The translations under genes and the position numbers were made by a program. 37,047 nucleotides of DNA. Origin: Dehalococcoidia bacterium. GTDB lineage: Bacteria; Chloroflexota; Dehalococcoidia; GIF9; AB-539-J10. The notes beneath the pieces were generated by a model. It did not search any database, was not told where the DNA came from, and saw only the letters and a list, made by a program, of their open reading frames with translations. This document shows positions 181 through 8,923 of the stretch, piece by piece (the stretch's first letter is position 1; every line of letters starts with the position of its first letter). Location: NCBI GenBank assembly GCA_030611085.1, contig JAUWQI010000014.1, forward strand, positions 1-37,047, in the 5' to 3' direction.

Positions 181-438
181 CTACTTAATCTTATAAATTT
201 CTCTTCTGTGCCCTACAAATTGAATTGCGACGGTCTTACCTTCTAGTGTATAAACTACTCTCCAATCTCCTATACGCAACTTGAATGCCCCTTTAAATCC
301 ACCAGTTAAAGGCTCAGGAATAACTCTTTCAAAATTATTAGAAGACCAAGTAATCCTTGCTAAGATTCTTCGGGCTATTGGCGTATCAAGCTTTTCAAGG
401 TCTCTTAGTGCTCTCTCAGTCCAGGTAACCTTAACCAA
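181..438 (-). CDS. RelE/ParE-family toxin
   Basis: An 85-residue protein with the layout of the RelE/ParE toxin superfamily: an N-terminal WTERALRDLEKL helix, then LTGGFKGAFKLRIGDWRVVY, the usual family core with the GDWR(V)VY strand, and a C-terminal VGHRREIYK. Characterised RelE members cleave mRNA on the ribosome, while ParE members inhibit gyrase; the sequence does not decide which. The start is TTG at 438, overlapping the last 8 bases of the upstream antitoxin gene, which implies coupled translation. Length is normal and no frameshift is seen. The 3' end abuts repeat R2. A remnant of a related gene end lies at 1263-1305. Confidence 0.85.
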   Translation of the reverse strand: MVKVTWTERALRDLEKLDTPIARRILARITWSSNNFERVIPEPLTGGFKGAFKLRIGDWRVVYTLEGKTVAIQFVGHRREIYKIK

Positions 439-619
439 AGCTTTCTAGTACCTCTTCATGAGGGATTCTCTTAGAGGGATTTTCCAAGCGCTCCTTCAGC
501 TCCTCTTTAAATTCCTCCTTGAGTTCTAGCCCGGAATCAGGGTCACCAAGAACCTCTAAGATTTTTTGCTCTATTAAATATTCCAACTCATCAATGGTTA
601 AATCTTTAACTTTTGCCAT
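431..619 (-). CDS. Putative antitoxin of the RelE-like module
   Basis: A 62-residue acidic, helix-rich protein that starts MAKVKDLTIDEL and ends in EVLESFG. I chose ATG at 619 rather than the upstream in-frame ATG at 667 because AGGAGA lies 7 bases before it. It contains LIEQKILEVLGDPDSGLELK followed by a charged helix, a pattern seen in small antitoxins encoded just upstream of RelE toxins. No classic ribbon-helix-helix or HTH motif is obvious. It overlaps the toxin gene by 8 bases. The role as antitoxin is inferred from position, size and the toxin partner. Confidence 0.75.
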   Translation of the reverse strand: MAKVKDLTIDELEYLIEQKILEVLGDPDSGLELKEEFKEELKERLENPSKRIPHEEVLESFG

Positions 620-955
620 CCGTATCTCCTTTTCTGGATTATACAACTTTAGCTCCCGTATTACCATTACGAGCGGAGTGTGGCAACATTACAAGGCGGG
701 GATAAACCCCGCCACTACAGTTGTTGACATCTAAATTCAAATATCAAAATGTAAAATGACAAGGCAAAATCCCAAAATGACTAGTTAATCCTCTCCCATC
801 AAGGGAGAGGAACTTTATACGAGCTTATGCGGTTAACTATAATTTTTTATCTTTAGCCTTTGATATTGTTTAGGTTTCGTGCTTAGGATTTATCATAACT
901 TTGCTTTGTCATTTTGCATTTTTGCTTTTGCCTTCCCTTTAAGGTTTCCCTTGTT

Positions 956-1005
956 GTAGTTGCCTGATTTATCAGGCAGGGTAGCCCAATAAATTGGGCA
1001 ACTAC
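956..1005. repeat. Double-hairpin palindrome GTAG...CTAC (P2)
   Basis: The ends are inverted repeats, GTAGTTGCC and GGGCAACTAC. Inside are two separate hairpins, GCCTGATTTATCAGGC and GCCCAATAAATTGGGC. Together with the DNA up to about 1046 it interrupts a longer repeat that is uninterrupted near 5309-5330, so it looks like a nested insertion. Confidence 0.7.
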
Positions 1006-1043
1006 AGGGATTGCTTCGGCACTTTGTGCCTCGCAGTACCCTC

Positions 1044-1100
1044 GTAGGGGAGGGGCTTGTCCCCTCCCCATTTGCGGGAGCCCACAAGGGGCTCCCCTAC
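1044..1100. repeat. Double-hairpin palindrome GTAG...CTAC (P1), copy 1
   Basis: A 57-bp element that begins GTAGGGGAGGGG and ends GGGGCTCCCCTAC. Each half folds on itself (AGGGGCTTGTCCCCT and GAGCCCACAAGGGGCTC). A nearly identical 57-bp copy lies at 5320-5376. This is a REP/MITE-like architecture with no coding capacity. Confidence 0.8.
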
Positions 1101-1207
1101 AGACTTTCCATATTGTCCATTGCGGTGAGCCGAAGCAATGTCATTGCGAGCGAAGCGTGGCAACCTCGTAGCGAAGGGGAAGCGTGGCAATCTCGGTCAA
1201 CCCCATC

Positions 1208-1262
1208 GCCATAAAGCTTTGCTGGATTATATAAGGTTGGTTCGAGATGGGAAGGGCAGCAA
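1208..1262. repeat. R2 repeat, copy b
   Basis: Carries GCTTTGCTGGATTATATAAG followed by GGTTCGAGATGGGAAGGGCAGC. The match to copy a continues without a break into the relE-like remnant at 1263-1305, so gene end and R2 were duplicated together. Confidence 0.7.
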
Positions 1263-1305
1263 TTACTGCTGCTTAATTTTGTAAATTTCTCTTCTACATC
1301 TTAAT
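1263..1305 (-). pseudogene. RelE-like toxin, 3'-end remnant
   Basis: The minus strand encodes RCRREIYKIKQQ and then a stop at 1263-1265. This matches the GHRREIYKIK end of the intact RelE-like gene, where the native TAG stop has become CAG. Downstream sequence also matches that of the intact gene (121-180 against 1208-1270). The rest of the toxin is absent. The remnant shows that a second module of this family was once here. Confidence 0.65.
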
Positions 1306-1327
1306 CAGCTCTCTTCACTTTTATGAT

Positions 1328-1357
1328 TTGACAACCGCTGGCACATTCGGTTACCCT
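1328..1357 (+). promoter_or_regulatory. Possible promoter of the protease module
   Basis: A perfect TTGACA at 1328-1333 is followed after 18 bases by TACCCT, a weak -10. It is the only reasonable promoter-like site before the two-gene module that starts at 1379. Confidence 0.35.
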
Positions 1358-1378
1358 TCTTCTTAGAGAGGTGGGAAG

Positions 1379-1606
1379 TTGGTCGAAACTGATGTTCTTG
1401 AGATAGAGAAACAATATCCCGATGAGTGGCTTCTGTTCGAGGTCTATGAGGTTGATAAATTGGGGCGTCCCGTAAAAGGTAAGCTTCTAGCTCATAGTCC
1501 CAGCCGAGTTGCTCTGGATGAATACTGGGACAAGATTGAGGTGAAGTTACCTTATGTAACTTATGCTGGTCAAAGACCAAGAAGAGGCATGGCGGTAGTA
1601 TTGTGA
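1379..1606 (+). CDS. Small protein of unknown function paired with the protease
   Basis: A 75-residue protein that I cannot assign to a named family. It starts at TTG (1379) with AGAGAGGTGGGAAG just upstream. It contains PDEWLLFEVYEVDKLGRPVKG, then LLAHSPSRVALDEYW, and ends GMAVVL. This looks like a compact alpha/beta fold without membrane segments or Cys motifs. The stop overlaps the GTG start of the next gene (GTGA), so the two are translationally coupled. The pairing with a retropepsin-like protease suggests a partner, substrate or inhibitor role, but that is inference only. Confidence 0.7.
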   Translation: MVETDVLEIEKQYPDEWLLFEVYEVDKLGRPVKGKLLAHSPSRVALDEYWDKIEVKLPYVTYAGQRPRRGMAVVL

Positions 1607-1989
1607 CTCGATTAACTTTCGACCCCAATGCCTCCCTCCTTATTTTCCCTTGCCAGGCTGAATATCGCCGTCGTATTCTGTTGGACCTTGCCCTGGATAC
1701 TGGCGCTTCTACTACTATTATCTCCACTAAAGTAGCCAAGGAAATTGGATATGAGCTTTCTCAAATAACTGCGCTTGCTTCCTTCGGTGATGCTTCCCAG
1801 ACTCACCTTGTCCCCAAGGTAACTCTGAAATCCCTGAGTTTGGCTGATGCTAGGGTGGAAAATATTGAAGCCTTGTGCTATACCCTCCCTGAGGAGCACG
1901 GCATTGATGGCGTTATCGGCCTTAATTTCCTGCGTCAGTTCAATATCGGACTCGACTTTAAGCAAGGAATCCTCACGCTTAGTCGCTGA
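1603..1989 (+). CDS. Retropepsin-like aspartic protease family protein
   Basis: A 128-residue single-domain protein with the aspartyl protease signature LDTGASTTIIS (Asp32-Thr-Gly) and a second diagnostic segment, GVIGLNFLRQFNIGLDF, near residues 104-120. Retropepsins act as dimers, each chain giving one catalytic Asp, and this size fits one retropepsin unit. There is no signal peptide or membrane anchor, so it should be cytoplasmic. The GTG start at 1603 overlaps the stop of the preceding small gene. The cellular target is unknown. Its place among TA-type modules raises the possibility that it belongs to an analogous two-gene module. Confidence 0.85.
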   Translation: MTRLTFDPNASLLIFPCQAEYRRRILLDLALDTGASTTIISTKVAKEIGYELSQITALASFGDASQTHLVPKVTLKSLSLADARVENIEALCYTLPEEHGIDGVIGLNFLRQFNIGLDFKQGILTLSR

Positions 1990-2033
1990 TATGCACGACC
2001 CTGAAAGGTCACATTAGTTTCTTCAATTCAACC

Positions 2034-2088
2034 TTGCCAAACGGCTTTGCTGGATTATATAAGGTTAATTTCAATATAGAGAAGAACA
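2034..2088. repeat. R2 repeat, copy c
   Basis: Carries CCAAACGGCTTTGCTGGATT, then a diverged TATAAGGTTAATTTCAATAT, and AGAGAAGAAC. It lies between the protease gene and the AF2212-like antitoxin gene. Unlike the other copies it is not at the 3' end of a minus-strand gene. Confidence 0.7.
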
Positions 2089-2156
2089 TCTCATTTATTC
2101 AGTCGTTGCTCTTGTTTTTTCTATTCCCCTTTGCTATCCTCAGAGTAGAGGTGGTA

Positions 2157-2372
2157 ATGTCCACAATTCAAGCAATTTATGAGAATGGGGTTCTTAAACC
2201 TTTGCAAAAGTTAGACATTCCCGAACGACAAAGGGTTGAAATTATCATTTTAGCTGATGACTTGCCTTCTTCTCTTATTGCTGAGATAGCTGAGCAGAGC
2301 GGCAGTTACACTTTCCTCAGTCATCCTAGCGAAGATATTTATACCATCGAAGATGGGGAAGGGATTGACTAA
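2157..2372 (+). CDS. AF2212-like (DUF104) antitoxin
   Basis: A 71-residue protein that opens with STIQAIYENGVLKPLQKLDI, the hallmark of the AF2212/DUF104 antitoxin family, followed by PERQRVEIIIL. The acidic tail (SEDIYTIEDGEGID) is typical for wrapping a toxin. I chose ATG at 2157 because AGAGGTGG precedes it; the longer frame back to 2034 would run through repeat R2. It overlaps the MazF-like gene by 20 bases. Family members more often pair with VapC/PIN toxins. Confidence 0.85.
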   Translation: MSTIQAIYENGVLKPLQKLDIPERQRVEIIILADDLPSSLIAEIAEQSGSYTFLSHPSEDIYTIEDGEGID

Positions 2373-2706
2373 CCTGTTAGGAACTCGCCTTAAGCGTGGT
2401 GATATTGTGCTTGTCTCCTTTCCTTTTACCGACTTGAGTGCTGAGAAACTGCGACCGGCCGTTATAATTTCTGCCGAGCCACAGGAATCTGATATTGTTA
2501 TTGCCTTTATTTCCTCTGTAGTGCCGCCCGGAGAATTGCCGATGGCTGATTTTCCGCTAGCGCCAAACCATCCTGACTTCCCCCAAACTGGTCTAAAGAA
2601 GGCTTCGATATTCAAGATGAACAAACTCTTGACTATTGAAAGAACCAAGATTATTCGCCGTCTTGGTAAGGTCAGCCCCGCCATACAAAAAGAACTTGAT
2701 AGGTGA
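2353..2706 (+). CDS. PemK/MazF-family toxin
   Basis: A 117-residue protein with the MazF/PemK core: LKRGDIVLVSFPFTDLSAEK at residues 13-32, RPAVIIS, and VIAFISSVVP, then a C-terminal TGLKKASIFKMNKLLTIERT with IIRRLGKVS. These match the RGDI(V)xVxFPFT(D), RPxVVIS and KLFTIDxxxI-type motifs of type II endoribonuclease toxins that cleave RNA at short sites. The start at 2353 lies inside the antitoxin gene; the TTG in LTNLLG or the ATG used here are both possible. Translation is coupled to the antitoxin. Confidence 0.9.
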   Translation: MGKGLTNLLGTRLKRGDIVLVSFPFTDLSAEKLRPAVIISAEPQESDIVIAFISSVVPPGELPMADFPLAPNHPDFPQTGLKKASIFKMNKLLTIERTKIIRRLGKVSPAIQKELDR

Positions 2707-2793
2707 CTGAAAGAAGCCCTTAGCTTATAAATTTCGAAGATTTAGTGAAGCTATAGATAAATCTATCTTTGGGCGCAATGCCCTTCACACCTT

Positions 2794-3006
2794 TTATAGA
2801 AGCTTTTTGAACTCCTCGATACTGAGCCCGGCATCTTGTACAATCCCAGCCATGGTGAAGGCATTAATCGGATTTGCTCTTGGAATGGTGATAACACACT
2901 CCCCATCGGTCATCGTGATATGCTTGCCCTGCCGTGCAATCCAGAAACCTGCCTTTCCAAAAGCACTAACAGCTCGCTGATGGTTTACACCCGGAAGTTT
3001 GGGCAT
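2794..3006 (-). CDS. hicA: HicA-family toxin
   Basis: A 70-residue double-stranded-RNA-binding-like toxin. Family features are the N-terminal PKLPGVNHQRAVSAFGKAGF, the motif RQGKHITMTDG containing the catalytic His, and a C-terminal MAGIVQDAGLSIEEFKKLL. HicA toxins bind and cleave mRNA, and the active-site His sits in the GKH motif here. The start ATG at 3006 lies 3 bases after the hicB stop, so the order is antitoxin first. Length is normal. Confidence 0.9.
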   Translation of the reverse strand: MPKLPGVNHQRAVSAFGKAGFWIARQGKHITMTDGECVITIPRANPINAFTMAGIVQDAGLSIEEFKKLL

Positions 3007-3009
3007 ATT

Positions 3010-3204
3010 TTACCCTACTTCTACATAACGGGACTCTTTATTTTTGCTTAATTCTCCGACAGTTTCCAAGTAAGCCTGAATGGCATCTTTTATGTTCTCC
3101 AGTGCCTCCCCTTCTGTCTCTCCCTGCGACCAACAGCCAGGCAGTCCAGGACACCAAACAGCATAACCTTCATCGGTCTTTTTAATATTGACTTTATATC
3201 TCAT
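3010..3204 (-). CDS. hicB: HicB-family antitoxin
   Basis: A 64-residue protein with the partial RNase H fold of HicB antitoxins: YKVNIKKTDEGYAVWCPGLPGCWSQGETEGEALENIKDAI. The motif PGLPGCWSQGET is diagnostic. It lacks a C-terminal DNA-binding domain, as is common for short HicB forms. Upstream on this strand, repeat R1 copy b supplies a promoter-like sequence with TTAAAC, 17 bases and TAATAT, so hicBA is probably transcribed from the repeat. Confidence 0.9.
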   Translation of the reverse strand: MRYKVNIKKTDEGYAVWCPGLPGCWSQGETEGEALENIKDAIQAYLETVGELSKNKESRYVEVG

Positions 3205-3243
3205 AGCACGCCTGGCAACTTATATTATGTTCATCTTAAGTTT

Positions 3244-3343
3244 TCTATATTAGCATATTAGCATTGTTTGTTTAATAATGTAGTGTGAGGCTTTAGCCTT
3301 GCTAAATGGCTTTGCGGGATTATACAAGCTTGGTTCGAGATAG
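3244..3343. repeat. R1 copy b joined directly to R2 copy d
   Basis: R1 starts TCTATATTAGCATATTAGCA at 3244 and runs through the GAGGCTTTAGCC core to about 3305. R2 (AAATGGCTTTGCGGGATTAT and following) runs to 3343, where the vapC remnant stops. This is the cleanest example of the complete spacer between two modules, about 100 bp long. Confidence 0.75.
3247..3275 (-). promoter_or_regulatory. Leftward promoter in R1 copy b, for hicBA
   Basis: Reading the minus strand gives TTAAAC, a 17-base spacer, and TAATAT preceded by TGC (an extended -10). It lies about 45 bases upstream of the hicB start. The same arrangement is found in the R1 copy at 5028. Confidence 0.5.
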
Positions 3344-3440
3344 CTACTTTAGAATCCTTAAATTTCTTACTCTCCCAAACTCCCTGATATTATCGGTCAA
3401 AAGAGCAAGCTCGTGATGAAGGCAAGATGAGATATTTCAT
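3344..3440 (-). pseudogene. vapC (PIN-domain toxin) collapsed by an internal deletion
   Basis: The minus strand has ATG at 3440 overlapping the antitoxin stop as ATGA and starts M-K-Y-L, as PIN toxins often do. After a few codons the frame shifts, and the +1 frame encodes CLHHELALLTDNIREFGRVR and then NLRILK and a stop at 3344-3346. That is the C-terminal signature of tRNA-cleaving VapC toxins (LLTxNxREFxRVxxL). About 100 internal residues, with the acidic active site, are missing. The length, 97 bases, is out of frame. Confidence 0.75.
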
Positions 3441-3667
3441 AATTTAACTTCTGGCCTTCTAGCAGAAAGTCGGCGACCCTCGTAAATATCTTTAATTAAC
3501 TGTTCACAATCAATCGTTCCTTTCCAACCTCCCATTGCTTTCTCAAATCTATCCTCTAAAGGAGTTTCTTTGATGGTAATGGTGATTTCCCTGCCGTCTT
3601 CCAAATTTAATTTTTCCAAAGGTTTAATCATCCCTCCTGAAACCTTTGCCCTTATTTCTATTGCCAT
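3437..3667 (-). CDS. AF2212-like (DUF104) antitoxin, orphaned
   Basis: A 76-residue protein with the family opening: AIEIRAKVSGGMIKPLEKLNLEDGREITITI. The middle part (EKAMGGWKGTIDCEQLIKDI) and basic end (YEGRRLSARRPEVKL) resemble antitoxins that pair with VapC. The start at 3667 has GGAGGG 6 bases upstream, inside the edge of repeat R1 copy c. Its toxin gene is reduced to a remnant that overlaps by 4 bases. The antitoxin frame is intact, so it may still protect against related VapC toxins elsewhere; that is inference. Confidence 0.85.
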   Translation of the reverse strand: MAIEIRAKVSGGMIKPLEKLNLEDGREITITIKETPLEDRFEKAMGGWKGTIDCEQLIKDIYEGRRLSARRPEVKL

Positions 3668-3678
3668 GGTTCCCTCCT

Positions 3679-3755
3679 TATCTATATTAGCATATTAGTG
3701 TTATTTGTTCACTGTCGTAGTGTGAGGCTTTAGCCTCGTGCAATCCCCTTTGTCA
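3679..3755. repeat. R1 spacer repeat, copy c
   Basis: Starts TATCTATATTAGCATATTAG and includes the GAGGCTTTAGCCTCG core and a TCATTGCGG-type repeat. It lies immediately upstream of the ribosome binding site of the AF2212-like antitoxin. The -10-like TAATAT is kept, but the -35 region is changed (GTGAAC where other copies have TTAAAC). Confidence 0.75.
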
Positions 3756-3836
3756 TTGCGGTGAGCCGAAGCCCTGAGTGTAGGGGAAATTGGGGTCATG
3801 TCATTGCGGTGAGCCGAAGCCCTGAGAGGGGAAATT

Positions 3837-4349
3837 GGGGTCAGGTCTTGTAGTGCTACTTTTTGTCTTTCCCCTCTACACGCTTTATCACTCTACTTAT
3901 CGTAGCGTAATGCACGCCCAGATATTTCTGCTATCTCCTTCTTTTCTGCAAAGCTATCTCCCCCAAGAAATACCTGCCCCCTTAACGCCCTCCACGGCGA
4001 ATCTTCCTTTAAGCCTTCATACACAAAAGCCCTGTACTCGCTGGTCGCCTCCCCTCTCCCTTCATCGAACTGCGAAAGTAGCCAGTCTGTTGTGAGGCAT
4101 GCGATTGCCCTTCTTTCATCAATTGTTCCTTCGTAGCTACTCCACCACCATTCTTCAGGACTACTCACCAAACCTGCTCTCACCGGATTTAAAACCACAT
4201 ATCGACACAGCTCAAGTAAATAACTGTCTTTATCTACCAGTATAGCTTTGTATCTTCCGTGCAGAAGGTATCCCATCTTGTTGTGTCTGCGGTTAAAGTG
4301 CTGTGCATAAACTCCATTCAATTAATGTTGCGTTTCAAGACTTGACCCC
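3837..4349 (-). mobile_element. Decayed REP-associated (RAYT) transposon with inverted ends
   Basis: The ends are GGGGTCAGGTCTTG at 3837-3850 and the reverse complement of GGGGTCAAGTCTTG at 4336-4349, matching at 13 of 14 positions. Between them is a truncated Y1-type transposase. A third, partial copy of the end (GGGGAAATTGGGGTCATG) lies at 3783-3800. The element splits an R1 spacer: the GAGGCTTTAGCCTCG core appears on both sides (3723 and 4355). Confidence 0.7.
3893..4321 (-). pseudogene. REP-associated tyrosine transposase, N-terminus deleted
   Basis: About 142 residues match the C-terminal part of IS200-like/RAYT transposases: NGVYAQHFNRRHNKMGYLLH, GRYKAILVDKDSYLLELCRY and VVLNPVRAGLV, then a variable tail. 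Full-length members have about 80 more N-terminal residues with the HxH metal motif (MPNHxH); these are missing. A TAA stop lies directly before the TTG at 4321, and the sequence 15 bases further is the element end. The deletion therefore joined the left end to mid-gene. It cannot encode an active single-strand transposase. Confidence 0.8.
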
Positions 4350-4351
4350 GA

Positions 4352-4470
4352 GTTGCGAGGCTTTAGCCTCGTGTGGTAGGAATGCACGACCGCACTGCAT
4401 TCAATCAATCAGCCTTGCCAAATGGCTTTGCTGGATTATACAAGCTTAGTTCAATAGGGGGGAAGAGCAA
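4352..4470. repeat. R1 core plus R2 copy e
   Basis: GCGAGGCTTTAGCCTCGTG at 4353-4371 is followed by R2 from about 4413 (CCAAATGGCTTTGCTGGATT and on to GGGGGGAAGAGC). R2 ends about 20 bases before the stop of the DUF2283 gene. This is the right part of the spacer that was split by the transposon remnant. Confidence 0.7.
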
Positions 4471-4488
4471 TGCGGCTTTAATTGAGCT

Positions 4489-4707
4489 TCAAGTGACAAT
4501 TGCCTCTACAGGAAGTTCTTGCAAACTTGCCCCGACTTCAGGAGAAAGAAAGTTGAGCCTTTCAAAGCCAATAACCTTCCCTTCTTTATCTTTAACCAAG
4601 ATTACCTCTTCGCTTGTTTCCTCACATATATATTCTTTCTCAGGGTCATCAAACCATACATTTAGAGTATTGCCTTGCTTATCGTAGAAAATTCTTATTT
4701 TTTCCAT
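4489..4707 (-). CDS. DUF2283 domain protein
   Basis: A 72-residue single-domain protein. It shows the DUF2283 pattern: IRIFYDKQGNTLNVWF, then EETSEEVILVKDKEGKVIGF and ERLNFLSP. Members are small beta-rich proteins often encoded next to RelE-like or DUF4258 proteins, and an antitoxin role has been suggested for them from gene context. It overlaps the upstream partner by 13 bases. A second DUF2283 gene lies at 9063-9269. Confidence 0.8.
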   Translation of the reverse strand: MEKIRIFYDKQGNTLNVWFDDPEKEYICEETSEEVILVKDKEGKVIGFERLNFLSPEVGASLQELPVEAIVT

Positions 4708-4997
4708 ATTACCTCCCCTACTTTCACTGCCTCGGTGAAATAGGCAGTTATCAAAAATCCTTCGTCATTAAGATGCCTTACCACAGCACAAATGAAATGC
4801 TTTTCTATTGGCTTATAGTATAAATAAACACTGGAATCTATTCCGCTCCTCCTTACCTCAATAGCATTCTGAAGAGCATCTTGAACTTCCCTCTCCTTGC
4901 CTCTCATTCCAGGATGCTTAGTAGTGACTAGTTTTTCCCAGTAAGCCTTAGTAGTCCTTATTCTCTTTCCTAAAACGCTGGTAACCTCGAAGTACAA
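4695..4997 (-). CDS. DUF4258/RelE-like putative toxin partner
   Basis: A 100-residue protein of nuclease-toxin type. It contains TTKAYWEKLVTTKHPGMRGK, a block of acidic and basic residues, IEVRRSGIDSSVYLYYKPIE and VVRHLNDEGFLITAYFTEAV. Proteins of this kind are related to the DUF4258 and RelE-like nuclease folds; I am not certain of the exact family. The start is uncertain: TTG at 4997 follows an in-frame TAG by five codons and has GAAGAG nearby, while the strong AAGGAGGA is 23 bases away. It overlaps the DUF2283 gene, which suggests a two-gene module. Confidence 0.65.
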   Translation of the reverse strand: MYFEVTSVLGKRIRTTKAYWEKLVTTKHPGMRGKEREVQDALQNAIEVRRSGIDSSVYLYYKPIEKHFICAVVRHLNDEGFLITAYFTEAVKVGEVIWKK

Positions 4998-5027
4998 CGA
5001 CTCTTCAGATATCTAACTTTTCCTCCT

Positions 5028-5096
5028 TATCTATATTAGCATATTAGTGTTATTTGTTTAATAATGTAGTACGAGGGTTTAGCCTCGTGCAATGCC
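5028..5096. repeat. R1 spacer repeat, copy d
   Basis: Starts TATCTATATTAGCATATTAG and carries GAGGGTTTAGCCTCGTGCAA. AAGGAGGA for the minus strand begins at its left edge. The palindromic elements at 5133-5151 and 5320-5376 separate it from R2 copy f. Confidence 0.75.
5033..5061 (-). promoter_or_regulatory. Leftward promoter in R1 copy d
   Basis: On the minus strand the -35 is TTAAAC (5056-5061), the spacer is 17 bases, and the -10 is TAATAT (5033-5038) preceded by TGC. It would drive the DUF4258-like/DUF2283 pair. Confidence 0.5.
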
Positions 5097-5319
5097 CATT
5101 TGTCATTGCGAGCGAAGCGTGGCAATCCTAGAGGCGGGGATAAACCCCGCCACTACGGGTGTTGACATCTAAACTCTAAATTCTAGCAAATATCAAAAAT
5201 CAAAGATAAAATTTTGCGAAGCAAAAAGGGGACTAAATAAGGAACATTCATTTTAGCTTTGATTTGTCATTTTGCATTTTTACTTTTGCCTTTTGATTTT
5301 CTTTAGGGTTTCCCTTGTT
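5097..5319. repeat. Mixed dispersed repeats
   Basis: No gene is seen. It holds a TCATTGCGAGCGAAGCGTGG repeat at 5102-5121, the GGCGGGGATAAACCCCGCC hairpin at 5133-5151, and an AT-rich degenerate segment matching 720-950. Confidence 0.7.
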
Positions 5320-5376
5320 GTAGGGGAGGGGCTTGTCCCCTCCCAATTTGCGGGAGCCCACAAGGGGCTCCCCTAC
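5320..5376. repeat. Double-hairpin palindrome GTAG...CTAC (P1), copy 2
   Basis: The 57-bp twin of 1044-1100, with one or two base changes. Its left flank (TTTCCCTTGTTGTAG) matches the sequence left of the P2 insertion at 946-959. Confidence 0.8.
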
Positions 5377-5423
5377 AGACATTAGTTGGCAGATATTGCC
5401 TCTACATTTAGGCAATCCAGCCT

Positions 5424-5478
5424 CGACAATTGGCTTTGCTGGATTATGCAAGGTTAGTTCGAGATAGGGAAGAGCAGC
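5424..5478. repeat. R2 repeat, copy f
   Basis: Carries TTGGCTTTGCTGGATTATGC, then AAGGTTAGTTCGAGATAGGG and AAGAGCAGC. It lies about 85 bases beyond the 3' end of the PilX-like gene. Confidence 0.75.
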
Positions 5479-5561
5479 AAAAACTAGACGCCGTGGTAGT
5501 TTTGTTGGCTTGTTTGGTAGGGGAAAGTGCTTGCTGTGGTTGCCCTGTCTTCACCTTTGGA

Positions 5562-6698
5562 TTAAACTGACGGATTAATGCTGTAGGTTTTAACTTCCAA
5601 TCTACCTGGAAGACTGCCAGGCAATTCGATCGGGCTGGAGCTTGGGATGTAGGTAAAGGAACCTTCCTTATCCGCTTGAATTTCTGCCCCGACCACACCT
5701 CCAATTACAGTAGCCGATTTGTCAAACGAAATTGTACCGTTAGGAGCATATATCAGCGCCTCTATGGTGGCTTCCTTCTTAAAAGTAATGTTGCCGTTGA
5801 GAGACATAATAATAGAGTCACCTCCGATACCGTAATCCGCCAGCTTGCTCAGGTAGATATTACCTACGGCAACTATGGAACCCGACCCTGTGACTGTATA
5901 GTCCTTTTTCGCTGTAATACTGCCTTCGACGTAGATTGTCCCCGTAAGGTTGATTGTAACGTCTTGAGTGATGTACAAGTCCCCATTGATATATTTTGGT
6001 CCTAATTCAATATCAGAGTCTACCGTCAGGCCGGGCAGGGTTCCCCCAACCAATGCCTCGTCCTTAAGTTTTTGAGCAAATTCCTCATCGTCCTCTTGGG
6101 TAGGGAATGCTTCTGGCCCAACCTCTATTACCTCTCCATCATTATGCGTAAAACCACTGCCATGAGTAAATGTTCCGCCATAATAGATGTCGCCTGTTAC
6201 CGTAGAGTCCTTGCCCAACGATATGTCACCCTTACTGGAAAGAGCACCACTAAAGATATCAAGATTGCCTCCAGGGATACTCTCCACATATGATTCAACT
6301 GTGGTGCTGCCAGCTGTGGAGGTAATCTTGTAAGTTTGGGCGTCGACCCTTACTACAGTAACATACACAGTTTTGTCATTTACTTCCAGAGGTGGGTCCC
6401 GTTCCCAAAGGTTCTCGTCGGCATTCCATGTCCAAGGTACTCTTGGCTCCCCACCTTGCTGTGACCAGTTTTCTATCAGCCAATGCTGTAGCCAATAGAA
6501 GGCGTCTTCTACCCCAGAATCGGCGGCGTAAAGCTCCATGGTTTTCGTCTCAGTAACCTGGTGCCCCTTGAGGCTGGTGGAGGCATAGTTGAGGGTGGGG
6601 ATGATGAGGAGCCCACCTAAAACCAGCAGAATCAGGACTATAGGCAAGACTTGCCCCCTTTGTCCTTTGATTATTTTTCTCAATGTTCCTTTTGTCAT
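5562..6698 (-). CDS. PilX-like pilus assembly protein with bactofilin-like repeats
   Basis: A 378-residue surface protein. Residues 15-40 (GQVLPIVLILLVLGGLLIIP) form one hydrophobic segment like the PilX N-terminus, and MELYAADSGVEDAFYWLQ follows, the usual PilX-type AxxAG-like sequence. From about residue 150 it contains hydrophobic-turn repeats (GDISLGKDSTVTGDIYYGG, GDLYITQDVTI, GNITFKKEATIEALIYAP) that look like a right-handed beta helix as in polymer-forming cytoskeletal proteins. It is last in the minus-strand pilus cluster. It is likely a minor pilin or pilus-associated protein; exact role unknown. Confidence 0.75.
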   Translation of the reverse strand: MTKGTLRKIIKGQRGQVLPIVLILLVLGGLLIIPTLNYASTSLKGHQVTETKTMELYAADSGVEDAFYWLQHWLIENWSQQGGEPRVPWTWNADENLWERDPPLEVNDKTVYVTVVRVDAQTYKITSTAGSTTVESYVESIPGGNLDIFSGALSSKGDISLGKDSTVTGDIYYGGTFTHGSGFTHNDGEVIEVGPEAFPTQEDDEEFAQKLKDEALVGGTLPGLTVDSDIELGPKYINGDLYITQDVTINLTGTIYVEGSITAKKDYTVTGSGSIVAVGNIYLSKLADYGIGGDSIIMSLNGNITFKKEATIEALIYAPNGTISFDKSATVIGGVVGAEIQADKEGSFTYIPSSSPIELPGSLPGRLEVKTYSINPSV

Positions 6699-6871
6699 CC
6701 GTATCCTTATTATGCCACTTCTGCTACTACATCTTACCGTCTTCTTTGGGGCACTTTAGCACTAATTCCATTTTACCATGTCCCAGGCTCATGTCAATTC
6801 CATTATCTTTACTTTACCTCCAAAGCTCGGACAAAAAGTGCTACTCTCTTGGGACTTTTCGGGATCTAGAT

Positions 6872-7495
6872 TCAGTCAGGGCGAGATTTAGCTTGAAATG
6901 CTCTCTTCTCCTTTCCTCCATCATAATCTTCAGGGTATTCAGTTCTCATTTCATAGTCCCTATCATTGCAGGCGGTTATATTCATCTTAAGAACTCGATT
7001 CTCATATGGGTCACACCAGGTATCATGATATGCAGGGTCATCAGGAGGCTCATTGCAAGGCGGAACGATATTCGTCGCTATGAAAGTTGTTGCCTCAAGT
7101 AAATCATCATCAGGATAATAATGCTCCCGCACTAATTCCGTAAGCCCACTAGAGCCATAACTGTCAAGTTTATAAATAACCTTGTGTTGTTTAGTATCAT
7201 CTTCAGGGTCAGGCCATGTTAGGGTAAGAAACTTTGTTAAGTCACTATTATCTGGACTTACAGTCTGAGCCATGAGCACATCCCTGCTAATCCAGTGACC
7301 AGCGTTGCGCACTTGATTTATAGCGGTGTTTGTGTCATTGCTGAGTGTAGTACCGGTAAGCACTTGATGTATGCTCATAGCAGCGGCAGCGGCAATAATG
7401 CCCGTTAAGGCGATGACTATTATCAGTTCAAGCAGGGTGAAGCCCTTTTGGCTCCTCTCCAGTCTCCTTAGCATTGAAGGCTTTTTCATTTTCAT
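6872..7495 (-). CDS. Prepilin-like protein (type IV pilin/pseudopilin)
   Basis: A 207-residue protein with a class III signal: RSQKGFTLLELIIVIALTGI, with cleavage expected after Gly18 and Glu at +5 of the mature protein. The hydrophobic helix runs to about residue 45. The mature domain is acidic, with four Cys residues spread over CNEP, WCDP and ACND segments, and is about the size of PilW/GspJ-type minor pilins. The start is ATG at 7495, with a second in-frame ATG at 7489. It lies between the PilX-like and PilV-like genes. Confidence 0.85.
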   Translation of the reverse strand: MKMKKPSMLRRLERSQKGFTLLELIIVIALTGIIAAAAAMSIHQVLTGTTLSNDTNTAINQVRNAGHWISRDVLMAQTVSPDNSDLTKFLTLTWPDPEDDTKQHKVIYKLDSYGSSGLTELVREHYYPDDDLLEATTFIATNIVPPCNEPPDDPAYHDTWCDPYENRVLKMNITACNDRDYEMRTEYPEDYDGGKEKRAFQAKSRPD

Positions 7496-7763
7496 TTACC
7501 TAAACTAACCTTGCTTTTCTCCTGTCATTGCGAGACACGCTAGTGCCAAAGCAATCTCACGAGATTGCCACGCCTTCGGCTCGCAATGACATTATCACCC
7601 TCATCTTAGTTCCTTCGCGGAGTTTATCCTGAGCGAGATGAGATTCTTCGCTACGCTCAGAATGACAGAAAGCGAAGGGCTCAGGACTTCGCCTCACCTC
7701 CCTTCGAGGGAGAGGAGATTGCGGCGTCGCTTTGCTCGTAATGACATAGCGTGGGCCTCTTTA
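7496..7763. repeat. Dispersed repeats between prepilin genes
   Basis: Contains an inverted pair of TCATTGCGAG and CTCGCAATGA at 7525-7590, a GATTCTTCGCTACGCTCAGAATGACA repeat at 7640-7667, and a CTCACCTCCCTTCGAGGGAGAGGAG repeat at 7693-7717. No gene is seen. Confidence 0.75.
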
Positions 7764-8219
7764 TCACCGGTTTACTTTATAGTCCTGCAATGTAAGCACT
7801 TCGTTTTCAATACAATCTTCATTATGATAAACGGTGACTGTTATCTTGCGAATGCCTTCTTCACTATCAATTTGTCCAGCCTCGACCTTAACGCAATAGC
7901 CAGCGTAGGCATCAGGAAGAGCATGACTCGAGTCAAACCAAGGTAATGGTGCATCTGATGAGCTAGAACCAGAGGTGGTAACTGTGTAAGACCAGCCAAC
8001 AACGGTGGAGTACTCCTGGCTCTTAACATACTCCATCTGGCTCGTAGCTAAGCTTTGAGCAGTTGAGCGCTCATCAGAGACGAAGACAGCTTTGAGAGAG
8101 GTGGACAAGCCGCCGAGAAAGGCAACGGCGATTACGCCCAGAATAGCCAGGGCTATTAGCACCTCAATAAGGCTTACACCCTTAGAGCTGCCTCGGAGAG
8201 CTTTCGTTATTTTGTTCAT
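7764..8219 (-). CDS. PilV/GspI-like prepilin
   Basis: A 151-residue prepilin: SSKGVSLIEVLIALAILGVI gives the cleavage site after Gly14 and Glu at +5. The hydrophobic helix is followed by LSTSLKAVFVSDERSTAQSLATSQMEYVKS, which resembles PilV/GspI-type minor pilins. The rest is a small beta-rich domain with two Cys. It is the first prepilin gene downstream of the TA-type modules that separate it from pilC. Confidence 0.85.
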   Translation of the reverse strand: MNKITKALRGSSKGVSLIEVLIALAILGVIAVAFLGGLSTSLKAVFVSDERSTAQSLATSQMEYVKSQEYSTVVGWSYTVTTSGSSSSDAPLPWFDSSHALPDAYAGYCVKVEAGQIDSEEGIRKITVTVYHNEDCIENEVLTLQDYKVNR

Positions 8220-8229
8220 TTGCTGACTG

Positions 8230-8362
8230 CACCCTCACCTTAGTTCCTTCCCCTTCACTTTGTTCAGGGCTTTGGCTCACTCGCTCAGGACTTCGCCTCA
8301 CCTCCCTTCAAGGGAGAGGAGGCGGAAATGAAGTGTGCACGAGGCTAAAGCCTCGCACTACA
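8230..8362. repeat. Dispersed repeats, including inverted R1 core
   Basis: Holds CTCACCTCCCTTCAAGGGAGAGGAGG near 8297 and GCACGAGGCTAAAGCCTCGC near 8338, which is the R1 palindromic core in the opposite orientation. Confidence 0.7.
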
Positions 8363-8376
8363 TTTTTTCGCCTCTC

Positions 8377-8607
8377 TCATTTTCTAAGCATTCTTCTGAA
8401 GGCGCTCTCATCGATGCCAGCCTGCCGCAGCATTTCATAGAAAGTCCCTTTCGGGATATTCCTTTTACCTTTATGGCTAATTCTTACCTGAAGAATAGAG
8501 CCATTCTGCAGGATTCTTTCCCATGTTTCGTGCTTTCTAGCTCTGACAAGTTCAAAACCAAGTTTCCCCAGAACATAGCGCATATCATCATAGGTGTAAA
8601 TGCCCAT
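8377..8607 (-). CDS. HicA-like toxin
   Basis: A 76-residue protein. YTYDDMRYVLGKLGFELVRA, ARKHETWERI (with the His expected for catalysis) and the C-terminal PKGTFYEMLRQAGIDESAFR match the HicA pattern of a short dsRNA-binding-like fold. It differs enough from the HicA at 2794-3006 to be a separate subfamily. The start ATG at 8607 lies inside the upstream gene (20-base overlap). Confidence 0.75.
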   Translation of the reverse strand: MGIYTYDDMRYVLGKLGFELVRARKHETWERILQNGSILQVRISHKGKRNIPKGTFYEMLRQAGIDESAFRRMLRK

Positions 8608-8923
8608 ATCGTATCCCGATAAGTTCCATAATCTCCCATTCGTCCTGGCATGCTGTAATTTTGTCTATATATGGCTTATGGTGTGCTCTGTTAGGGCTTT
8701 TGAGGTATATTTCCTCTCGGGCTTTATAATCCTCGGCATACTCCCTTATGAGTTCCACTATAGCCTCTAACGCTTCCTCTTTGGTATCCATTTCAGTAAC
8801 CAGGTCCAATTCAGGACACTTAGCCATACATCTGCCGTTGTCTTTGACAATTAGCACTGTTAAAAGCGAACCCGTGGTAATCGCACCAGTCCAGCTTTTC
8901 TCAGGTGTTTCAGCTCTTTTCAT
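8588..8923 (-). CDS. HicB-like antitoxin
   Basis: A 111-residue protein with a HicB core: LTVLIVKDNGRCMAKCPELD, then LVTEMDTKEEALEAIVELIR. The usual CPxLxxxxxxGxTxEEAL motif is modified to CPELDLVTEMDTKEEAL. A C-terminal extension of about 35 residues (HHKPYIDKITACQDEWEIME) is unlike short HicB forms. GAGGT lies 7 bases before the ATG at 8923. It precedes and overlaps the HicA-like gene, as in other hicBA modules. Confidence 0.75.
   Translation of the reverse strand: MKRAETPEKSWTGAITTGSLLTVLIVKDNGRCMAKCPELDLVTEMDTKEEALEAIVELIREYAEDYKAREEIYLKSPNRAHHKPYIDKITACQDEWEIMELIGIRYGHLHL

Follow-up and report, generated by a model that had tools for sequence, protein, structure and literature searches.

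An orphan AF2212-like antitoxin beside a vapC remnant in a Dehalococcoidia bacterium, and toxin loss among related VapBC modules

Toxin loss with retention of the antitoxin is already known elsewhere at rates similar to those found here, and the locus described below is a further case. The toxin gene was reported as lost or disrupted in 52%, 27% and 23% of the homologues of xre-res, higBA and brnTA respectively (PMC7280312), and the same paper cites a figure of about 30% for ccdO157 of E. coli (Mine et al. 2009). In these systems of Pseudomonas putida and its relatives, as in ccdO157, truncated or missing toxin genes lie beside antitoxins that have been kept, at rates near the 9/28 found here; they belong to other families and to cultured proteobacteria, whereas the present locus is an AF2212-VapC pair in the Dehalococcoidia for which the break point has been mapped. 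No published count for AF2212-VapC modules was found among the open-licence papers searched.

Antitoxins that stand alone have been described in several contexts. A survey of Klebsiella gave 2253 orphan antitoxin occurrences and proposed anti-addiction, regulation or a remnant state to account for them (PMC7192599); anti-addiction and decay are both described in PMC2654758, and decay is reviewed in PMC7167474. The COG2880-PIN modules were defined by Makarova et al. (PMC2701414), who also drew attention to the likeness of their antitoxins to AbrB and to the abundance of solo antitoxins. The present locus resembles the orphan and solo antitoxins of PMC7192599 and PMC2701414 in having an intact antitoxin without its toxin, but differs from them in that the toxin remnant can be read on either side of the deletion, which fixes how this orphan arose. 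With the COG2880 (AF2212, DUF104)-PIN module, for whose antitoxin there is a structure (2NWT), it shares the antitoxin family and the ATGA overlap between the two genes; here, however, the toxin is dead.

The antitoxin gene and the remnant of vapC

The window is a whole contig of 37,047 nucleotides, from a Dehalococcoidia draft genome of 1.16 Mb in 30 contigs that is 83% complete. The antitoxin lies on its reverse strand at 3437..3667 and encodes 76 aa of the PF01954, COG2880 type, scoring 38.3 bits against the Pfam AF2212-like model (cut-off 21.6) and agreeing with all 12 columns that are invariant when 13 family members are aligned. The family profile matches structure 2NWT with an E value of 5.2e-5, whilst searches of PADLOC and NCBIfam with the antitoxin gave no match. 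The C-terminal half is retained together with the conserved end RRLSARRPEVKL, and the ATG is preceded by a good ribosome-binding sequence, AAGGAGG (AAGGAGGGAACC). A preliminary description of this locus had called the antitoxin frame intact and allowed that the antitoxin might prove decayed as well; the open reading frame is whole. As frame, start and ribosome-binding site are all whole, the orphan antitoxin is probably still made.

The antitoxin TGA (3439-3437) overlaps an ATG (3440-3438) that opens the 16 aa frame MKYLILPSSRACSFDR (3390..3440, reverse strand), which starts as vapC with MKYL(I) and is then frameshifted to a stop. Only the first 4-5 codons of vapC are left on this 5' side, the first 14 and 15 bases being the same as in two other loci, L056 and L082. 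The antitoxin's frame, continued past its TGA as the +1 frame, reads ISSCLHHELALLTDNIREFGRVRNLRILK and ends at 3344; it holds about 28-29 codons of the 3' end of vapC (3344..3430, reverse strand) with TAG as the stop. The overlap and M-K-Y-L start which had been noted previously are the same as those of L057 and L009, and the coordinates 3344-3667 given for the locus were correct.

The suggestion that the +1 frame encodes the end of the toxin is borne out by three lines of evidence. When 84 genomes of the order were searched with the intact 131-aa VapC of genome G003, the remnant was picked out independently (E 5.1e-4), with 48% identity between the window tail and residues 97-129. A profile built from nine intact relatives matches at 3350-3430 over columns 104-130 of 132 (E 8e-7), and 2000 dinucleotide shuffles of the tail's 101 bases all fell short of its 24.8 bits, the best scoring 6.2. 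A Pfam run on the short tail peptide alone gave no match; its recognition required the family profile. At about 24.8-24.9 bits the tail scores slightly under all 19 intact tails scored (26.0-43.1), and the deletion may therefore not be recent. A scan near 3344 revealed no terminator-like site, and promoter matches were weak.

Intact modules with the ATGA overlap and the MKYL start are found in G003 (L009 and L057), a genome of the same family, and those of G005, also of the same family, have a slightly longer start (L008 and L053). Alignment to such intact AF2212-VapC modules, which the preliminary description had advised, locates the deletion: 296 bp are absent from the window vapC relative to L009 and L008, which is not a multiple of 3 and amounts to 98.7 codons where about 100 had been estimated. 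Base 17 of the remnant lines up with base 313 of intact L009, and to the same place in L008 once two extra start codons are allowed for. The junction zone, TCATC (3426..3430, reverse strand), contains 3-5 bases that fit both sides, and the tail side begins at a serine codon, for which L056 and L082 both have TCA. From these letters a short-homology deletion at the join, with 3-5 bp of possible microhomology, is likely.

The acidic residues of PIN domains have a catalytic role. Those that are invariant in the nine intact relatives (D6, D8, E41, E44 and D98) all lie within the part that has been lost, such that the PIN toxin of the window locus is neither complete nor in possession of these residues; as they and the reading frame are gone, no toxin is made, and whatever product vapC still encodes is predicted to be unable to act as a PIN nuclease. 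The locus can nonetheless be placed as a type II VapBC module with an AF2212 antitoxin, by virtue of the PF01954 match and the overlapping downstream vapC start, and as an orphan, by virtue of its intact antitoxin, its toxin remnant and the lack of a same-type toxin in a genome that is 83% complete.

Intact and broken modules among relatives

Decay of this kind is not unusual among relatives of the same pair. When 393 genomes of the class were searched with the antitoxin profile, 28 matches reached 1.6e-13 and the DNA downstream of each was read; weaker matches were left out, being mostly short or partial, and six of them (L083-L088) lack a family VapC. The vapC gene is intact beside 19/28 of these antitoxins and broken or missing beside 9/28, with each break being different. 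As well as the 296-bp deletion of the window, the broken cases comprise an internal deletion with a frameshift (G165, L048), genes of which only ~17 (G140) or ~35 (G425:C8) codons are left, a frameshift (G198) and an internal TAA (G151), whilst vapC is absent from G127:C192:24233, G230 and G181.

Other samples gave comparable figures. Among 400 genomes of the phylum there were nine further antitoxins, 4/9 of which lack an intact vapC. A scan of GTDB gave 15 loci, four of which it has in common with the class sample (L047, L048, L053 and L057); with L058 (a different toxin) and L059 (a contig end) set aside, 4/13 usable loci are broken (L046, L048, L051 and L056). L046 has an internal vapC deletion, and L051, from Nitrospira, has one that joins the antitoxin directly to the final 8 codons of VapC. 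In L056 (3213-3737) the antitoxin is intact and vapC is interrupted by about 130 bp that resemble a dispersed palindromic repeat of the genome, and thus the toxin was inactivated by insertion, not deletion.

The same 393 genomes were also searched in reverse, giving 30 VapC matches that score 118 bits or more, two of them to broken genes. The examination covered 27 of the 28 intact VapC (G250:C13 was left out), and immediately upstream of 26/27 lies an open frame that matches the family antitoxin, the exception being L165, where an unrelated ORF lies upstream of an intact VapC and no AF2212 antitoxin can be recognised. Single antitoxins therefore outnumber single toxins 9:1 (one-sided binomial p 0.011), a ratio to be read in the light of the different detection limits of the antitoxin and toxin profiles. 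The previous proposal that the toxin is lost before the antitoxin thus describes the commoner order in these genomes, at 9/28 against 1/27. The Nitrospira genus was kept out of the rates, as its counts are biased by the genus having been chosen for the broken L051.

The broken cases are dispersed across the tree of antitoxins. On a tree of 54 antitoxins, 19 of which lie beside a broken or missing toxin, 15 changes of state are needed compared to a mean of 15.9 for shuffled labels; the tree was built from 86 columns and has many weak forks, with at least 8 changes forced by its well supported branches alone. In one genus (g252) the module is intact in L176, whilst L177 and L180 share one deletion at the same locus. 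The window antitoxin pairs with that of L135 (1534-1764) in G127 (support 92/72), the two having the stretch EDRFEKAMGGWK in common, and this closest relative has no recognisable vapC. An intact module of the same type lies ~17 kb from L135 on the same contig of G127.

The genome from which the window comes contains eleven PIN matches and four AF2212 matches. The preliminary description had proposed looking for a VapC of the same type elsewhere in this genome, and the profile search found none, a result that is not final at 83% completeness: no PIN protein passes 1e-20 against the family profile, and the best other full-length match reaches 62.1 bits compared to 208.9-229.3 for the nine intact members. 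The nearest VapC (C8:7850-8209), with 37% identity to the G003 toxin, was rejected as partner of the window antitoxin because the ORF upstream is of a different kind. In a second AF2212-PIN pair of the genome (C12:8115-8762) the toxin has 163 aa and is not of the window type. On contig C12 of this genome (G000), locus L043 (558-2178) contains a second, very similar AF2212-PemK pair followed by an AF2212-PIN pair with a 163-aa toxin, also of another type, such that the genome holds paralogous cassettes. Among the genomes with a broken copy, the toxin profile search found an intact same-type copy elsewhere in 2/19 (G127 and G425) and none in the remaining 17/19, within the limits of draft genomes.

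Selection, the shared leader and the origin of the orphan

On its own the window locus is a routine pseudogene. The AF2212-VapC family, though, has intact, deleted and orphan states in close species (L176, L177 and L180), and such a series allows one to ask if an antitoxin without a toxin is selected or drifts. Since their shared deletion the antitoxins of L177 and L180 have acquired 9 synonymous and 9 nonsynonymous differences (dN/dS 0.34, Fisher p 0.026), whilst their vapC remnants differ at 14/205 bases, 6 of them in third positions, which is about the unconstrained expectation; total divergence is alike in the two parts (18/234 in the antitoxin, 14/205 in the remnant) and the constraint is therefore modest. 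In two species of Nitrospira (L129 and L130) a shared deletion took both vapC and the C-terminal half of the antitoxin, leaving the N-terminal AbrB-like half with a dN/dS of 0.10 (p 0.0003). L051 and L128 give 0.21; with break points six bases apart the two may have been deleted separately, and a clear ATG start is missing from L128.

For pairs whose toxins are intact, dN/dS lies between 0.05 and 0.26. With dN/dS below 1 in two orphan pairs that share a deletion, some orphan antitoxins may be kept by selection. These first figures point to weak constraint on orphan antitoxins, and from the one truncated pair it seems that retention can be confined to the DNA-binding half. For the window antitoxin and its nearest relative L135 dN/dS is unusable, as synonymous sites are saturated.

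Immediately before the window antitoxin is an 82-nt leader repeat (3670..3751, reverse strand), of which there are four copies in the 37 kb (1-68, 3233-3314, 3670-3751 and 5019-5100). Three of these lie immediately upstream of operons, namely the orphan, a HicBA operon (from 3204) and a DUF2283 pair (from 4997), and the copy at 1-68 is at the contig end. The leader includes the ribosome-binding sequence in two of the three toxin-antitoxin-type operons. Its 17-nt core has 4 matches where 0.23 would be expected, and the long form is found on the window contig only. Inside the leader is a dispersed element, GAGGCTAAAGCCTC, which occurs elsewhere in the genome too.

We consider that the toxin decayed ahead of its antitoxin, with vapC losing ~296 bp in one deletion and the orphan antitoxin being left behind, and place the probability of this at roughly 0.87. 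The module would have been a type II VapBC in which an AbrB-like AF2212 antitoxin is followed by a PIN-domain RNase toxin, and the deletion probably ran from one short match near codon 5 to its counterpart near codon 103. The locus would then be one case of a recurrent decay in this order, which can be understood if a dead toxin is costless beside its antitoxin whilst loss of the antitoxin would free the toxin. An error of assembly or sequencing, with the real genome carrying a full vapC, would be conceivable in a draft assembly of an uncultured lineage that is 83% complete, yet it is very unlikely: the join shares no more than about 5 bases and the 296 bp that are absent are not a repeat in the relatives, which would give an assembler no obvious path to skip them, the window tail scores below the intact range, and like losses with other break points occur in independent assemblies. 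The deletion allele might in principle be a minority variant. It is harder still to credit that the antitoxin TGA is passed and the VapC tail serves as an extended antitoxin C-terminus. The tail is in the antitoxin's frame, and the Nitrospira antitoxin of L051 is fused directly to VapC codons, but such agreement of frame arises by chance one time in three and the TGA is the ordinary stop, as it is in L009 and other intact modules that have the ATGA overlap.

What the orphan now does, if anything, is a separate matter. It is rather unlikely that it has been kept as an anti-addiction factor, a role which the preliminary description had suggested, to neutralise related VapC toxins arriving on mobile elements. 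The C-terminal half, assumed to bind toxin, is kept in the window, the antitoxins of L177 and L180 are constrained where their vapC remnants have little third-position bias, and relatives of VapC are found on 201/72,556 plasmid records. These plasmid relatives all have <60% identity, though, and about 35-36% among the 15 matches listed. As a rule type II antitoxins are specific for toxins close to their own cognate, which tells against a role towards such distant toxins, as does the absence of a same-type VapC from the source genome, and the constraint on L129 and L130, which lack the C-terminal half, would be left unexplained. Phage records matching VapC are few (3/50,697, again all <60% identity), and no relative emerged when viral contigs were scanned with the antitoxin alignment, such that a phage origin is unsupported.

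Use of the orphan as a putative DNA-binding regulator, controlling its own gene and perhaps the HicBA and DUF2283 operons, we also regard as unlikely. In its favour are the same leader before all three operons with its over-represented core, the AbrB likeness of AF2212 proteins (PMC2701414) and the constraint on L129 and L130, in which no more than the N-terminal half is left. Against it, the leader has the dispersed element inside it, and recombination or insertion that copied a segment would explain the leader equally well. The broader proposal that AF2212 antitoxins are repeatedly freed by vapC deletions and then selected as stand-alone DNA-binding regulators, with the window orphan acting in trans on neighbouring operons that share its leader, is likewise unlikely. 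Under toxin-first decay the orphan is most likely a persisting leftover, which through its AbrB-like half may still bind the DNA of its own leader.

The surrounding region

The window contains a dense cluster of toxin-antitoxin-like pairs from 181 to 8923. From the ORF list and Pfam these are a ParE-type pair (181-667), an AF2212-PemK pair (2034-2706), HicBA (2794-3204) and the DUF2283 pair (4489-4997), with a possible HicA/HicB-like pair (8377-8923) recognised by eye. Between them, at 3893-4321, is a fragment of a REP-associated tyrosine transposase that matches the end of the model only and scores below the cut-off. ORFs with prepilin-like N-termini (GFTLLELIIVIAL and others, again identified by eye) lie at 6872-8219, which suggests that a type IV pilus or pseudopilus cluster adjoins the toxin-antitoxin region.
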